A stretch of 64,000 bases of DNA from Terriglobus sp. RCC_193. Lineage in GTDB: Bacteria > Acidobacteriota > Terriglobia > Terriglobales > Acidobacteriaceae. The notes beneath the pieces were generated by a model. The model was not told the origin of the DNA, searched no databases, and saw only the letters and a list, made by a program, of their open reading frames with translations. Shown here piece after piece: positions 57,438-64,000 of this stretch. Within the stretch, counting starts at the first letter, position 1. The number at the start of each line of letters is the position of its first letter. Where the stretch lies: assembly GCF_041355105.1 (NCBI RefSeq), contig NZ_JBFUPK010000001.1:1178001-1242000 (forward strand), read 5' to 3'. Position numbers and translations under genes: made by a program.

Positions 57438-57824
57438 TCAACACGTCTTCACACTAGGATAGTCAAAGGTATCCACGTTATCTGCATCGCCACGATCGAT
57501 ACAGGCAAAGTCTTTTTCAATCGCGATCTGGAGTATTTGGTCTCCGTATACCGTTTGTTCCGCATAAAGTCCTACCTTCCCGTCGTCGTTTGCCCAGCCG
57601 ACAATCTCTTCCGTGGGCGCCGTAATGTGAATGGAAAATCCTTTCTGTTCCGCCCTGAGCACTGTGTACATAGCCCCGTGTTCAATCGAGTAAGACAACC
57701 GGCCGGCGGGATCGGAGGCACTAAGCAGCGTGTGCGCCACGATACTTCCCTGCTCTGCCAGGGCACGCACTTCCGATCGGAGCAAACGGAAGCGGATGGA
57801 GTTATCCTTGATTCTCAATTTCAT
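57438..57824 (-). CDS. Uncharacterised small protein at the end of the nitrate cluster
   Basis: A 128-residue protein, starting MKLRIKDNSIRFRL. Its pattern (charged, strand-rich, with a central IHITAPTEEIVGW segment and a Cys-rich end with DFACIDRGDADNVDTF) resembles short conserved proteins I associate with molybdopterin-enzyme operons, without a name I can state confidently. No signal or membrane segment. The ATG at 57824 is the likely start; a GTG 12 nt earlier is possible. It ends the minus-strand nitrate module, 16 bp after the porin gene. Confidence 0.6.
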   Translation of the reverse strand: MKLRIKDNSIRFRLLRSEVRALAEQGSIVAHTLLSASDPAGRLSYSIEHGAMYTVLRAEQKGFSIHITAPTEEIVGWANDDGKVGLYAEQTVYGDQILQIAIEKDFACIDRGDADNVDTFDYPSVKTC

Positions 57825-57840
57825 AAAACGCGACACACTC

Positions 57841-59292
57841 CTAAAGATGCTTTTGGAACTTGTAGTTCAACTCGAAGTATCCATAGTTAGAATCACGATT
57901 GCGAGGATAGATCGTCGCGATCACCGTCTTCCCATAAGCATGAGCATAATAGGCCGTCAGTGATACTTGTGGCGTGATGGCATAATCCGTGCTGATATCG
58001 AAGAGCGATGAGAAGCTGGCGTTGCCGTTTGAGGGGCGCCCGGTGTACCCAAACACCTTGTTATCAAACGCTCCTCCACCCTGATACCAGAAATCCTGCT
58101 TCGATGTGAGTTGCAGAAAATGTAGATCGCTCCGGATTTCTATCTTCTTACTGGGATTATCGATCATTTGCACAAATGTATCTGTGGAGTTCATCAGGTT
58201 GTAAAACGGATCACGCGCATAAACGCGCGGGGTCGGCAACATCTGGAAAAATGTATTGTGTTTCCCGTCATTGGGATTATCGTCACCAGTCGAACGAAAG
58301 TGTCCTCCACGAAACCATGGCATCGATGCCACAGTGTTGAGCTTAATGCCGCCTTCTACCGCGATCGCACCGGCGGAGTGATCCAGAACGCCCCAGCGAC
58401 CGCTCTGCCCTGCACCCCACAGTACAAAATCCACCGTAGTTTTGCCTGTAGGAATTGCAGCAACAATATCGCCGCCGTATGTGCCAATGCGAATATTCGT
58501 GTGGTCCAGTGCTCTTGCTGTAGCTGTCCGGTTATCTGTTTTTGTAATCCCCGTACGCCCATCGTGATATCCAACCCCAAAGCCACGAACAAGTAGGTGC
58601 TGGTTCAGGTACCGAGAAAACGAAAGGTACTGAATATCAACGTTAAGCTCCGGATTGGCATTCGTATTGAAGACACCTTGCGTTACACGGCCCGCCATCG
58701 CAGTAACATCCCAGGCTGCCCCGCCAAGCTTCACATCCATGCCGTCGAATGATCGCTGTCCATTGGAGAACCCGAAGTTACCCACCAGACGCTGGGCAAC
58801 ACGATTCGTTTGCAACCAGCGAAGTGACGGGGCCTTGGCCGACATCTCTTGCCCTTCGAAAAACTCGAAGCGCCCGATGCGTGCCGCGCCTCCATCCTCA
58901 TGGAAGTGATAGCGAAGAAAACCCTGCCGGAACGACGCAGCCGCTGGGTACGCATTGCTATTGTTCGCGGCATAGTACGTGCCTCCCAGGCCAAGTTGCC
59001 CCTGCGCTGCAATCGGCGAAACTGCATCCGTTGGAAGCGCCAGCTCAGCGCTCTGGCCCAGGTCCAGCATGTAGTCGACTTTGCGTATTCGTTGCGTCAA
59101 CGAAAGGCGTAAGAGCGAATCCTGATGCCCATACACTTCAGCAGTTGGAGTCGCAGCAAACCACTGAGTGGCATTCGTGCGTTCACGAATGGCAACCGTA
59201 ACAAGCGGCCCCGTTGTTGCCGATGGGGAGGTCTGAGAAAACAAAGAGGGAGCCATGCTCGCAACAGCGAGCAAGAGGAGGGACTTCTTCAT
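57841..59292 (-). CDS. Alginate-export-like outer-membrane beta-barrel protein
   Basis: A 483-residue exported protein: signal peptide (residues 1-20, ending LFSQ), followed by a long strand-rich sequence with alternating hydrophobic and aromatic residues and a terminal aromatic strand (GYFELNYKFQKHL), as in outer-membrane beta-barrels of the alginate_export type. Conserved-looking segments include SAKAPSLRWLQTNRVAQRLVG and FDISTDYAITPQVSLTAYYAHAYG. As part of the nitrate module it may be the outer-membrane pore for nitrate or nitrite uptake (inference). 100 bp separate it from narK upstream. Confidence 0.8.
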   Translation of the reverse strand: MKKSLLLLAVASMAPSLFSQTSPSATTGPLVTVAIRERTNATQWFAATPTAEVYGHQDSLLRLSLTQRIRKVDYMLDLGQSAELALPTDAVSPIAAQGQLGLGGTYYAANNSNAYPAAASFRQGFLRYHFHEDGGAARIGRFEFFEGQEMSAKAPSLRWLQTNRVAQRLVGNFGFSNGQRSFDGMDVKLGGAAWDVTAMAGRVTQGVFNTNANPELNVDIQYLSFSRYLNQHLLVRGFGVGYHDGRTGITKTDNRTATARALDHTNIRIGTYGGDIVAAIPTGKTTVDFVLWGAGQSGRWGVLDHSAGAIAVEGGIKLNTVASMPWFRGGHFRSTGDDNPNDGKHNTFFQMLPTPRVYARDPFYNLMNSTDTFVQMIDNPSKKIEIRSDLHFLQLTSKQDFWYQGGGAFDNKVFGYTGRPSNGNASFSSLFDISTDYAITPQVSLTAYYAHAYGKTVIATIYPRNRDSNYGYFELNYKFQKHL

Positions 59293-59392
59293 GAATGTCT
59301 CCTGAAGCGTCTTGCGTTATTCCAGCGCGGCTAGCTGATGCTTTGCGCCTCTGGACGTTATGTATCTCGCGGTTGAGTCAGCCGGTTAGACC

Positions 59393-60652
59393 TTAGACAG
59401 CGATAGCCGAATTCGTTACTCCAATAATTTCGGAGTCAACAGCCTCGGAAGCAATCGCTCTCCCCCCTGCTCCGACCCAGCTCTTCGTCCATCGGCGAGC
59501 AACAAGTCTCATGACGACTAGTACCAGAACGGCAAAAATCGCATAAGCCACGAAGCCCGCGGAAAAGGATCCGGTCTTCTGTTTCGAGATTCCAAGAGCA
59601 TTCGGAAGAATGCTTCCGCCAAGAGCTCCGATCTCGCCGATCATGCCACCTGCAATTGCTGTGGTTAGCGGCCAACGCAATGGGACAAGCTGAAATGTTG
59701 CTCCATTACCAGCACCCAGTGCCGCGAAACACACCATAAAGAGAAAGGTTGTTACAGCAAGCGAGGGTGATGTCGTAAGACCGAAGATGCCTGCAATGGC
59801 TACGAGAAATACAACCGATAGAGTCGTGATCCCACCGATCTTATCTGAGAGCCATCCGCCCAATACACGCGTTCCACTTCCCAGCAGTGTCGCCATCATG
59901 GTCAGCGTACCGGCCTGGGTCTTTGCAATGTGGAACTGCGCTACATACAGAGAGGGCAGGAACGTCGCGAGCCCCAGAAAGCCGCCGAAGGTAATGATGT
60001 AAATAAGGTTGAAGTACCATCCATCAGCTTCCACCAGGCATTTCAGATGCTGCCGCAGTGTCTGATGCTCTTTGTCTGGTGGTTCCTTCGCAAAGAAGAT
60101 CATAGTCAAAAGTGGCAACAGCATGAATAGTGCTGCAACGCCATAAACATCTGACCATCCGTAGGCCTTGGCAAGACGCGGTGCAAAGAACGCGGCAAGA
60201 GCTGTTCCGCTGTTCCCTGCTCCGGCAATGCCCATCGCAAGGCCTTTGTATTCCTTTGGAAACCAACCGGAGCCAAGAGAGAGAGCGACGCCAAAGCTGG
60301 CGCCTGCAGTTCCCAGCAACACACCCATGGCAAGAACATTTGAAAATGTGTGGACAAAGAAAAAACCATACATCAAAGCGGCAATAATTATGACCATCTC
60401 AATAATTGCCGCGCTCTTACGTCCGATGTATTGACTAAGAACTCCCAGTGGAAAGCGCATCAGCGCACCAGCCATGGTGGGTATCGATACCATCAGCCCT
60501 GTCTGAGCTGGTGAAAGATGAAACTGTTCAGTAATGAATGGGCCCATGGCTCCGTTCAGTACCCATACAGCAAAACTGAAGTCGAAATACAGGAAGGCGG
60601 CGAAGAGTGTGGGTGGATGTCCGGAACGTAAGAACGCTTTTGCGCTTGCCAT
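59393..60652 (-). CDS. narK: NarK-type nitrate/nitrite transporter (MFS)
   Basis: A major facilitator transporter of 419 residues with about 12 membrane helices. Nitrate signatures are visible: AGAGNSGTALAAFFAPRLA and ALGAGNGATFQLVPL, the two NarK-type G-rich motifs that line the substrate path, and FPLGVLSQYIGRK near the loop 2-3 region. It imports nitrate or exchanges nitrate and nitrite across the inner membrane. AGGAGCC precedes the ATG. It is downstream of the nitrate reductase gene on the same strand with a 126-bp gap. Confidence 0.93.
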   Translation of the reverse strand: MASAKAFLRSGHPPTLFAAFLYFDFSFAVWVLNGAMGPFITEQFHLSPAQTGLMVSIPTMAGALMRFPLGVLSQYIGRKSAAIIEMVIIIAALMYGFFFVHTFSNVLAMGVLLGTAGASFGVALSLGSGWFPKEYKGLAMGIAGAGNSGTALAAFFAPRLAKAYGWSDVYGVAALFMLLPLLTMIFFAKEPPDKEHQTLRQHLKCLVEADGWYFNLIYIITFGGFLGLATFLPSLYVAQFHIAKTQAGTLTMMATLLGSGTRVLGGWLSDKIGGITTLSVVFLVAIAGIFGLTTSPSLAVTTFLFMVCFAALGAGNGATFQLVPLRWPLTTAIAGGMIGEIGALGGSILPNALGISKQKTGSFSAGFVAYAIFAVLVLVVMRLVARRWTKSWVGAGGRAIASEAVDSEIIGVTNSAIAV

Positions 60653-60778
60653 GTTGTGGCTCCTAAGTCGAAGTGAGTTTGTTGTGAAACTGCGCTTACG
60701 GCTTGTGGTGCGGAGCGAACGTCATGGTTCAGCTCTTTACTACGGTGATACTCTCGCGGCGGTCATGGCCGCAAGGAT

Positions 60779-62947
60779 TCAGCGGCTACGCTCGACGCGC
60801 ACAGCACACTGTTTGAAATTGGGTTCGCGACTAATGGGATCGAATGCACCCAGTGTGACAAGATTGGAGTTCTGTTCGGCAAAATGGAATGGCATAAAGA
60901 CCTGGCCAGGTGCAACGATGCCGGTAATGCGCAGCTCAATACCCTCAACACTGGCACGGCGAGAGACGAGGGTGATCCGATCATGCTGACGCAACGAGAG
61001 ACGTTCCGCATCAACAGGATTCATCTCTAACCACGCGTTGGGGACCATTCTATCCAGCTGCGGAACAGCTCCTGTCTTTGTTCTTGTATGCCAATGCTCA
61101 ACCGTGCGGCCCGTATTGAGAATGAAGTCGAACTCTTTGTCTGGCTGTTCTGTGAAGGGCAGGCACGGGACACAATGTAATTTCGCCCGACCACCTTCAT
61201 AGGGGAAGACGCCCTCTCGATAGAGGCTTGCACCACCCCATTGCACACCGCCCTGTTCTTCCAGTTGCTCCCACGTAAATTGGCTATAGTCGCAAAGCCT
61301 GCCTGCCGACACACGCTGCCACTCCAACCATGCGTCATGAGATGAGGTCCAGCCAGGAAACAGCTTTTCTCGAATCCCTAGCCGCTCTGCGATAGAGAGA
61401 AAGATATTGAAGTCTGGACGTGCCTCTCCGGGTGGTGTAACAAACGCATTTACCTTACTGACGCGGCGCTCTGAATTTGTATAAGTTCCTTCTTTCTCAC
61501 CCCAGATCGCCGCAGGAAGCACAAGATCGGCATAATCCATTGTTGGCGTTGGGAAGAAACCATCCTGCACCACCACAAACTCGGCCGTAGACAAAGCCTG
61601 CGTCAACAGCTTCACATTCGGAAAACTCACAACCGGATTTGTAGCTATGAACCAAAGAGCACGAACGCGTTTATCGAGAGCACCCTCAATGATGTCAGGG
61701 TACGCAAGTCCGCGTGACTGCGGCAACTCATCTTCGTCAATACCCCATAGCGCTGCTAATTCTTCACGATCTTTTGGGTTATCAAATTTGCGATACCCAG
61801 GCATGCCAGAGGTAAAGCCACTCTCGCGCGTCCCCATGGCATTGCATTGTCCCGTGATCGAGAAGGGAGCAGAACCCAATTGCCCTATCTTGCCAGTAAG
61901 CAATGCAAGATTGTTGATCGCCGCAACCGTCACGGCCCCCTGTGTCGAATGGTTCACGCCCATCGTCCACCCGATAAAAGCGGACGATGCTTTCCCATAA
62001 AGGAAGGCTACATTCTCAATCGTTTCTACCGAGAGGCCTGTGGTGAGAGATACAGCATCTGGCGTGAACTCAGAAACAAAACTCCTGAATTCTTCGAGTC
62101 CTTCCGTGTGTTCTTTTAAGAAGCTCGCGTCGATCATGCCGTCACGCAAGAGGATGTGAGCGATACCATTCAACAACGCGATATCAGAGCGAGGCTTAAC
62201 CGGAAGATGGATGTCTGCCATCATTGCTGTTTTAGTAACGCGAGGATCGGCAACAATAAGAACCTGTCCTGGCTTCTTTCGCAGACGATTGCAAAGAATC
62301 GGATGGTTGTCTGCAATATTCGAGCCGACTAACAGGACGACATCTGCATGCTCCATATCGGCATACGAACCGGGCGGACCATCTGAGCCAAAGCTCATCT
62401 TGTAACCCGATACGGCTGATGCCATACACAGCGTAGTGTTGCCGTCGTAATTCCTACTGCGGAACCCGAGTTGCACAAGCTTGCCAAGCGTGAAGAACTC
62501 CTCTGTGAGGAGCTGTCCTGTCCCGATCACACCGAGAGTATCAGCGCCATGCTGCCGCTGAAGTGCCGTTATGCGCGTGACCATCACATCCAGCGCCTCG
62601 TCCCATGTGATCGGCTCGAAAGGTGAATTCCGTCCGCCACGACGCAGCAATGGAGTACGCGCGCGGCCCGGAGTATCGATCATCTGGTGTTCACTTAGTC
62701 CTTTCGGACAAAGTTTGCCGAGGTTTACAGGGTGATCCGGATTGCCGCGTACCGCAACTGCTTTACCATCGCGTGTACCAGCCAGCATGCCGCAGCCCAC
62801 GGAACAATAGCCGCACGTTGTCTTCGTCCACTTATCAGCAATCCTGGATTCCGATATATGTCCGAAGATTGGATCTCGTCCGTAGGCGTACTTACTCGTT
62901 GCAATATCCAGGCCAAGAGCTCTCATCAGTCGTTGCGTAATGCTCAT
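60779..62947 (-). CDS. nasA: Nitrate reductase catalytic subunit (NasA/NarB type)
   Basis: A molybdopterin (bis-MGD) oxidoreductase of 722 residues. The N-terminal 4Fe-4S site has Cys45, Cys48, Cys52 and Cys80 (TTCGYCSVGCG ... KLCPKG). Further landmarks are GQLLTEEFFTLGKLVQ, NHSTQGAVTVAAINNLALLTGK and EHWHTRTKTG near the MGD sites; the C-terminus ends EPNFKQCAVRVERSR, as in assimilatory nitrate reductases. No Tat signal is present, so it is cytoplasmic; no C-terminal 2Fe-2S domain is visible. It overlaps the upstream FeS/DmsC-like gene by 4 nt, pointing to a membrane-linked electron donor. It reduces nitrate to nitrite. Confidence 0.92.
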   Translation of the reverse strand: MSITQRLMRALGLDIATSKYAYGRDPIFGHISESRIADKWTKTTCGYCSVGCGMLAGTRDGKAVAVRGNPDHPVNLGKLCPKGLSEHQMIDTPGRARTPLLRRGGRNSPFEPITWDEALDVMVTRITALQRQHGADTLGVIGTGQLLTEEFFTLGKLVQLGFRSRNYDGNTTLCMASAVSGYKMSFGSDGPPGSYADMEHADVVLLVGSNIADNHPILCNRLRKKPGQVLIVADPRVTKTAMMADIHLPVKPRSDIALLNGIAHILLRDGMIDASFLKEHTEGLEEFRSFVSEFTPDAVSLTTGLSVETIENVAFLYGKASSAFIGWTMGVNHSTQGAVTVAAINNLALLTGKIGQLGSAPFSITGQCNAMGTRESGFTSGMPGYRKFDNPKDREELAALWGIDEDELPQSRGLAYPDIIEGALDKRVRALWFIATNPVVSFPNVKLLTQALSTAEFVVVQDGFFPTPTMDYADLVLPAAIWGEKEGTYTNSERRVSKVNAFVTPPGEARPDFNIFLSIAERLGIREKLFPGWTSSHDAWLEWQRVSAGRLCDYSQFTWEQLEEQGGVQWGGASLYREGVFPYEGGRAKLHCVPCLPFTEQPDKEFDFILNTGRTVEHWHTRTKTGAVPQLDRMVPNAWLEMNPVDAERLSLRQHDRITLVSRRASVEGIELRITGIVAPGQVFMPFHFAEQNSNLVTLGAFDPISREPNFKQCAVRVERSR

Positions 62948-64000
62948 GCAGCCTCCGCGTGACTACCGATAAAGCCCAGGCCCATGCTCAACGGCACAAC
63001 GGAAACAAAGAAAAGATATCGTCCGGTAACCACTGTCACGACGCCTGCGAAAAGTGCGAGCCACGGCAGCGGGGCGTATGCAAACAGAACCGCTGCACCA
63101 GCACTTAGAAAAGCGAGCGCCACTCGATAGAACAATTGCTCTCCGCGCAGCAGGTTATAGCTGGCGCGTTGCTCGAACACGATTGCGTGGCGAAGCCGCG
63201 CGATCCTCACAAGTTGATTTACGCTCCAGACCGATGCAGACACCAGCACTACGCCGGGATGAGCAAAGTGGTCCTGTGTTATGACATCTGCTACGAGGCT
63301 TCCCAGTAAGGCCGCTGAAGCCAGAAAATCAATGGGTGTATGGACTGTGTTCCATGCGGGTCTTGCTTTAACAAGATAGAGTGCGGCGCTCGCCAACGTC
63401 CCGCATAATCCAAGCAATATGCTAGTGCAGGCAAGTGGTGCAACCAACCAGCGGAGGGTTGGAAACCACGCAGAAGCCGCGCATGCCGTGACGGTGCTGT
63501 AGAAGAGGCCGAAGCATAAAACTTCACGACTGAGCCATGAACGCCGCCACATGCGAAGTGCACGCCATGCGTAGGCTGGACGACCGAGATGAAACACGGA
63601 CACATTCAAAGCAAACGTTGTAAGCAACCAGAGCAGTGCCAGAACAGTAGCCGTTAATTGATGTGCAATGGTTGTAACAGCAAGCGCTCCAAAGGAGGCT
63701 TGCATCACCGTGGTCATTGCAATCAAGGAAGGATGCGCATGCTCAAGATGGATAGCCCCCGTGTCCACACGCTCTAACCAGGAGGATGACCGCTCGGGAA
63801 GCGTAATGCGCGTGGTCGAGATTGTCTGTCCTGCTGCCGGCATTCCAGGAGATTCCGCGGTATGGAAATCTCTCTGCCATTCCTCCTTATTCACAATCTC
63901 GATCTGAATTGCATTTTCCGGGCAAGCGTTCACACAAGCAGGCTCACGTCCGTCGAGCAAGCGATCGCGACACATATCGCACTTGCCTACCACCCCGCGC
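62944..64000 (-). CDS. Fused FeS (DmsB-like) and DmsC-like membrane anchor, 5' end off window
   Basis: The frame runs off the right edge; the visible 352 codons begin in the middle of a ferredoxin domain (GKCDMCRDRL, then ACVNACPENAIQIE with further Cys). A linker and about eight hydrophobic helices follow, with the DmsC-type opening HPSLIAMTTVMQASFG and FHLGRPAYAWRALRMWRRSWLSREVL, the quinol-site signature. The protein would pass electrons from the quinol pool to an FeS module. Its 4-nt overlap with the nitrate reductase gene implies the two subunits form one enzyme. The full gene would carry additional Cys motifs in the missing N-terminus. Confidence 0.82.
   Translation of the reverse strand, partial: RGVVGKCDMCRDRLLDGREPACVNACPENAIQIEIVNKEEWQRDFHTAESPGMPAAGQTISTTRITLPERSSSWLERVDTGAIHLEHAHPSLIAMTTVMQASFGALAVTTIAHQLTATVLALLWLLTTFALNVSVFHLGRPAYAWRALRMWRRSWLSREVLCFGLFYSTVTACAASAWFPTLRWLVAPLACTSILLGLCGTLASAALYLVKARPAWNTVHTPIDFLASAALLGSLVADVITQDHFAHPGVVLVSASVWSVNQLVRIARLRHAIVFEQRASYNLLRGEQLFYRVALAFLSAGAAVLFAYAPLPWLALFAGVVTVVTGRYLFFVSVVPLSMGLGFIGSHAEAA

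Follow-up and report, generated by a model that had tools for sequence, protein, structure and literature searches.

From where does a cytoplasmic nitrate reductase draw its electrons when the gene that overlaps its own encodes a membrane anchor? The question is raised by a 64,000-nucleotide (nt) stretch of the 4.2-Mb genome of Terriglobus sp. RCC_193 (hereafter the window; G000:C1:1178001-1242000), at whose right-hand end nasA, which encodes a molybdopterin oxidoreductase, lies beside a gene for an iron-sulfur (FeS) domain fused to a DmsC-like membrane domain. A sequence-only reading of the window had proposed that the two proteins make up a quinol-linked nitrate reductase unlike both NarGHI and the classical assimilatory (Nas) enzymes. 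From a comparison with related loci, I conclude that the pair probably encodes a cytoplasm-facing assimilatory nitrate reductase that draws its electrons from the quinol pool.

A conserved gene pair

As the sequence-only reading had said, the fusion gene shares 4 nt with nasA, and in Pfam searches the fusion protein matches Fer4_11 (E 2.5e-22) and DmsC (E 2e-8, with a score over the cut-off). Only the C-terminal part of the fusion lies inside the window, and 461 nt run past its edge. That reading had also set an unrelated partner gene beforehand as a finding that would count against it. What emerged was a partner that accompanies nasA almost throughout. Among the relatives, defined here as the best 80 of 140 loci, the fusion adjoins nasA on the same strand in all 77 that have upstream sequence; in the remaining three the nasA frame opens at the first bases of a contig piece. 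The nearest relatives, judged by the nitrate locus, are Terriglobus and other Acidobacteriaceae. The 4-nt overlap is obtained in 69 of the 77 when NasA is taken to begin at the closest start codon in frame.

The same association holds across genomes. A survey of 297 genomes of the phylum found the fusion at more than 700 bits in 16 (the next match scoring 284) and NasA at more than 1330 bits in the same 16 (next 615). Within 200 genomes of the class, full-length fusion and NasA occur in the same 43, the two matches being on one contig and no more than 136 nt apart. The phylum of a metagenome-assembled genome (MAG) record titled Nitrospira sp. has the fusion in 5 of 46 genomes, beside NasA in all five, and in a plasmid collection of 72,556 records, 714 matched but none covers 80% of the fusion. 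By these co-occurrence counts, the pairing of the fusion with nasA is far beyond chance. Two MAG records titled Rhodanobacteraceae (L006) and Bordetella parapertussis (L054) carry an acidobacterial-type locus, with NasA identities of 78% and 64%, respectively, and are probably mislabelled or contaminated bins.

The catalytic subunit and its membrane partner

In NasA, Pfam detects the domains Molybdop_Fe4S4, Molybdopterin and Molydop_binding but, at E 0.001, not Fer2_BFD, which upholds the claim that the subunit lacks a C-terminal [2Fe-2S] domain. Equally, the claimed absence of a twin-arginine translocation (Tat) signal stands, for a regular-expression check finds no twin-arginine motif in the protein; the expression matches three of the 80 relatives (L038, L048 and L050), none of which reads as a signal peptide. 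The motif of the N-terminal [4Fe-4S] cluster (Cys45/48/52/80) and the molybdenum (Mo) ligand Cys174 are invariant in 81 rows, and Met175, directly after that ligand, is invariant in 34. The Cys-Met pair occurs in Nas and in the periplasmic enzyme NapA, as opposed to the Cys/Sec-His of formate dehydrogenases (FDH), E. coli FdhF having His where this family has Met, and the loop TGQ-NAMG-RE agrees with Nas. The best solved relative is the monomeric NapA of Desulfovibrio desulfuricans (573 bits), which the NasA model fits with a TM-score of 0.87. A tree of 57 rows places the NasA family as a clade (100/100) within a group of Nas and Nap (100/99), outside which fall FdhF and the FDH-like L138; the tree labels SoePsr-like and Dms-like are guesses. 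By motif and tree position, the predicted catalytic subunit is of the Mo-bis(pyranopterin guanine dinucleotide) (Mo-bisPGD) type of the Nas/Nap clade. The genome holds two further PF00384 proteins, neither of which reaches the NarG, NapA or Nas cut-off; one is NuoG-like, at 457 bits just below the cut-off of 470. The other, the genome's third MopB protein (L085 802-3528; G000:C2:767957-769225), is unassigned and falls below all listed NCBIfam cut-offs.

The partner has the features of a four-cluster B subunit and of a DmsC/NrfD-type anchor. Its FeS half contains 16 Cys, enough for four [4Fe-4S] clusters, and each of them is found in 99-100% of 72-73 fusion rows; in Foldseek this half resembles the beta subunit of formate dehydrogenase N. 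Its DmsC half has eight transmembrane helices by hydropathy and by model, with one further weak hydropathic stretch located within the FeS half, and resembles ActC and the menaquinone-bound PsrC (TMt 0.73, E 0.013). The quinone site of E. coli DmsC includes Ser62, His65, Ser82 and Glu87 (PMC8076601). In the alignment, Ser62 corresponds to Ser288 of the fusion, kept in 44 of 47 sequences, and the other three to His291, Ser308 and Glu313, each kept in all 47, as is Arg481, the counterpart of the central Arg271. The half-channel residues of DmsC are partly kept, Thr151 in 47/47 and Glu267 in 35/47, with Val in the Terriglobus protein. Elsewhere in the phylum (L107-L114), other FeS-DmsC fusions or unfused pairs lie beside MopB proteins that are 25-27% identical to NasA, and the fusion type is therefore not unique in itself.

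On which side of the membrane would this enzyme work? Counts of Lys and Arg in the loops average 13.2 on the FeS side and 3.0 on the other, and the FeS side is the higher in 47 of 47 fusions, whereas the same count gives 3 against 7 for E. coli DmsC and 4 against 11 for Azospirillum DmsC. Together with the missing Tat motif, these counts assign a cytoplasmic position to both NasA and the FeS half; the predicted orientation of the fusion is thus the reverse of that of E. coli DmsC. An inverted orientation is likewise expected for SoeC (PMC8076601). The kept quinol-site residues and a charge pattern that puts the FeS half inside lend support to the earlier proposal of a quinol-linked enzyme.

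Nitrite reduction and shared control

Sequence to the right of position 64000 completes the operon, whose full order is nirA, a cysJ-like gene, the fusion gene, nasA, narK, a porin gene and a DUF7009 gene, all on the minus strand. The junctions are tight: nirA shares 4 nt with the cysJ-like gene, and the fusion gene begins 1 base after the cysJ-like stop. The upstream products reach NCBIfam cut-offs, CysJ-like with NF004859 (455 bits, cut-off 432) and NirA with NF007126 (774 bits, cut-off 523). A gene for a HemD-GAF-ANTAR regulator stands divergent from the nirA operon, in line with the suggestion of the sequence-only reading that the missing upstream part might hold regulators. That reading had also described a route from the outer membrane to the cytoplasm. 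A porin and NarK are indeed present, but the route continues beyond nitrite, since nirA (nirB in other loci) and the CysJ-like reductase belong to the system, and for the same reason its role is read as assimilation.

The presence of a CysJ-like gene in the same operon raises an alternative for the electron supply, namely that the diflavin protein feeds NasA and the anchor merely tethers the enzyme or dumps excess electrons. NasA-CysJ-type fusions are annotated in Tsukamurella and described for alphaproteobacteria (PMC4013037), so such a donor has parallels. The distribution of the genes speaks otherwise. The CysJ-like gene occurs in 30 of the 80 loci, which are all 27 with a full-length NirA plus three cut at contig ends. 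A partial NirA match is found instead in 31 loci, of which one, L026, was scanned and has NirB domains downstream of nasA, as has L080, a locus missed by the threshold; in L066, cut at a contig end, the pyridine-nucleotide part is seen. The NirB loci have no CysJ-like gene, yet they retain the fusion-nasA pair. Since the fusion is present in both kinds of locus, CysJ goes with NirA and the fusion with NasA. A mere tether, moreover, would not need the kept quinol-site residues. I therefore consider a soluble donor to NasA unlikely and prefer electron supply through the anchor.

A further tie between the two steps is a 14-nt leader element, GCTC[CT][AG][CT]GA[ACT]GAGC, which can form a 4-bp stem with a 6-nt loop. 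In 1.23 Mb of loci it turns up 19 times where base composition predicts 0.37, and every one of these copies precedes either nirA (11) or the fusion gene (8). When up to two mismatches are allowed, 26 of 29 loci have it 114-178 nt upstream of nirA, and L059 adds a further match at 329 nt. With up to one mismatch, 13 of 71 loci have it 80-194 nt upstream of the fusion gene, and in none of these 13 does the fusion follow cysJ. Random 430-nt windows gave a match with up to one mismatch in 20 of 2000 and with up to two in 136 of 2000. Four loci (L051, L052, L068 and L074) have the element before both units. In the group with a partial, NirB-like match, the fusion is preceded by it in L058 alone, a case that chance could give. 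By its distribution, the putative leader is a link between nirA and separate fusion-nasA operons, and it may be the target of the HemD-GAF-ANTAR regulator. A strict dual-hairpin ANTAR target (4-bp stems and hexaloops with A1 and G4) was found in none of eight leaders, and the leader hairpin is not claimed as one, because its loop has G4 but C at position 1 rather than A. Rfam gave nothing at gathering score in L083 and only chance-level matches in the Terriglobus leader.

Could the enzyme instead be respiratory, a quinol:nitrate reductase with a cytoplasmic active site like that of NarGHI, with NirA or NirB only removing nitrite? Quinol coupling and NarK would fit respiration too, and ammonification by NirB is known in anaerobes. 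The operon and the shared leader, however, tie the system to NirA with a CysJ-type donor and to the HemD-GAF-ANTAR regulator. The nearest known nitrate regulators to this protein are NnaR, which carries a HemD-like domain, and NasR. NasR, an ANTAR protein (PMC3369931), and NnaR (PMC6277429) both serve nitrate assimilation. A dissimilatory role accordingly seems improbable beside an assimilatory one. Homologues of the regulator include some that match in the HemD part only (L053).

Proposed mechanism and evidence against it

Operon, domain content, conservation, motifs, charge topology and the shared leader are read from the sequence; the following account of substrate, quinol as donor, direction, complex formation and regulation is built upon them. 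The porin would admit nitrate across the outer membrane and NarK would carry it across the inner one, after which the NasA-type Mo-bisPGD subunit would reduce it to nitrite in the cytoplasm. The DmsC-type membrane half of the fusion would oxidise quinol, its electrons running through the four [4Fe-4S] clusters of the N-terminal half to the single [4Fe-4S] of NasA and on to the Mo centre. NirA, fed by the CysJ-like reductase, would then reduce nitrite to ammonium, a step that in relatives would be taken by NirB with its own pyridine-nucleotide domain. The HemD-GAF-ANTAR protein would control both steps, perhaps through the common leader element.

Several observations weigh against this account. 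The FeS half of the fusion model is of low confidence. The unfused acidobacterial DmsC used as a control shows no charge bias (8 against 8), so the charge rule is not decisive for every homologue. The join of the NasA clade to one Deinococcus Nas in the tree is weak (83/33), and NasA misses the NCBIfam cut-offs for NasC (485 bits, cut-off 1100), NasA_Halo (470, 1000) and NapA (445, 904). A NasA-family fragment (679 bits over 370 positions) lies on a 4.6-kb contig of the class genome G350, where no anchor gene was found in about 3.2 kb of upstream sequence; this is either a genuine exception or the product of a low-quality MAG contig. Although a NarK or Nir match is found in 72 of the 80 loci, eight have neither, and at least some of these have no recognised nitrite reductase in the sequence examined. 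Finally, the top NCBIfam score of NasA is with Fdh-alpha (526 bits, below the cut-off), for which I considered another complex iron-sulfur molybdoenzyme, such as a formate dehydrogenase in the cytoplasm that passes electrons to quinone, and rejected it as very improbable given Cys-Met instead of the FDH Cys/Sec-His, the tree position and the surrounding nitrate genes.

Comparison with known nitrate reductases

NarGHI also reduces nitrate with quinol on the cytoplasmic side, but it does so with Asp as the ligand to Mo in NarG and with NarI, an anchor of the haem b type; the Terriglobus system has a Cys ligand and a DmsC-type anchor in their place. NapA has the closest solved catalytic fold and shares the active-site motif; it is periplasmic and Tat-exported, unlike this NasA, and receives its electrons through NapB/NapC/NapGH. 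DmsABC and PsrABC share the four-cluster B-type domain, the C-type anchor of eight transmembrane helices and the quinol-site residues, but their catalytic side is periplasmic, their catalytic subunit is another and their B and C subunits are unfused. The nearest precedent in layout is SoeABC, with a DmsC/NrfD-type anchor expected to be inverted and a catalytic side hypothesised to be cytoplasmic (PMC8076601). This sulfite:quinone oxidoreductase differs in its substrate, in its three separate subunits and, according to the literature, in its catalytic family. The claim of a system unlike NarGHI and classical Nas is supported by the sequence, but the inverted anchor has a precedent in SoeABC.

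Electron supply is a main trait that separates assimilatory nitrate reductases. NasA, NasC and NarB, listed as cytoplasmic (PMC10100899), resemble the Terriglobus enzyme in location, in length (about 700 aa), in a single [4Fe-4S], in a Cys Mo ligand followed by Met and in a nitrate-assimilation operon. They are known to take electrons from ferredoxin, flavodoxin or NAD(P)H through soluble subunits or fused domains (PMC2483277, PMC4013037), as against a four-[4Fe-4S]/DmsC membrane partner here. According to a 2020 phylogeny (PMC7331816), no member of the clade of Nas, Nap and cytoplasmic FDH is associated with four-cluster or anchor subunits, and the parts available of the open-access literature gave no description of a complex of Nas with an FeS-DmsC fusion. 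The modules are thus known and the combination is one reported absent by that phylogeny. That such an exception is conserved in a common phylum of the soil would alter the picture of that clade (PMC7331816). It also suggests where to seek donors for Nas enzymes whose donor is unclear, as in Sulfobacillus (PMC4378227). I lean, with some reserve, towards placing the pair in a class of its own among assimilatory nitrate reductases, that of a quinol:nitrate oxidoreductase whose DmsC anchor is inverted. Two of the eight electrons needed for assimilation would then come directly from the quinone pool of the respiratory chain, perhaps with movement of charge, and NAD(P)H would be spared. On the same reckoning, quinol-type or cytochrome-linked modules would have joined Nas at least twice, as DmsC in Acidobacteriota and a second phylum, and as a four-cluster/Rieske set in other Acidobacteriota and one Deinococcus plasmid. 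Soil nitrate uptake would then be linked to respiration. The system also offers a test of inverted DmsC/NrfD topology, and it is testable because it occurs in named strains of Terriglobus, Granulicella and Acidipila that have culture-collection numbers.

A separate Nas-like clade with the motif DYNGRLCMVSA is found in L131-L137 (Acidobacteriota) and in L128 (3671-8871) on a plasmid of Deinococcus sp. NW-56, adjoining a four-[4Fe-4S] subunit. A Rieske protein is encoded in L128, L132 and L136, also with major facilitator superfamily (MFS)/NarK transporters, and NarK-like genes occur in several loci; DUF6755 is found in L128 and a weak NarI-like membrane protein, below the cut-off, in L132. This arrangement is possibly a second quinol- or cytochrome-linked type of Nas.

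Neighbouring genes

The features of the locus are collected in Table 1; L083 coordinates are converted to the window by adding 59999.

Table 1. Genes and elements of the Terriglobus nitrate locus, in window coordinates unless marked L083.
Feature	Position	Strand	Basis
DUF7009 protein, 132 aa	57438..57836	-	PF22668, E 1e-27
Outer-membrane porin, alginate-export type, 483 aa	57841..59292	-	PF13372 Alginate_exp, E 1.9e-12
NarK-type MFS nitrate/nitrite transporter, 419 aa	59393..60652	-	PF07690, TIGR00886
NasA-type molybdopterin oxidoreductase, predicted catalytic subunit, 722 aa	60779..62947	-	Pfam/NCBIfam, NapA as best solved relative, motifs, tree
Four-[4Fe-4S] and DmsC/NrfD-type fusion, eight transmembrane helices, 505 aa	62944..64000 in window, likely start about 64461	-	Pfam
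CysJ-like diflavin reductase	L083 4464-6206, outside window	-	NCBIfam/Pfam
NirA-family nitrite reductase	L083 6203-7987, outside window	-	NCBIfam/Pfam
Putative leader element	L083 8116-8129, outside window	-	14-nt motif
HemD-GAF-ANTAR regulator	L083 8389-10032, outside window	+	Domain content; homologue in 44/80 loci

NarK matches TIGR00886 at E 1e-71 with 242 bits, below the cut-off of 312. The DUF7009 protein is probably accessory, because by tblastn a homologue is present in only one (L077) of 83 searched loci. The porin has a homologue in 33 of the 80 relative loci, and a further stretch of the same genome (L002; G000:C2:1392844-1393895), 65% identical in DNA to the porin gene, is probably a paralogue.

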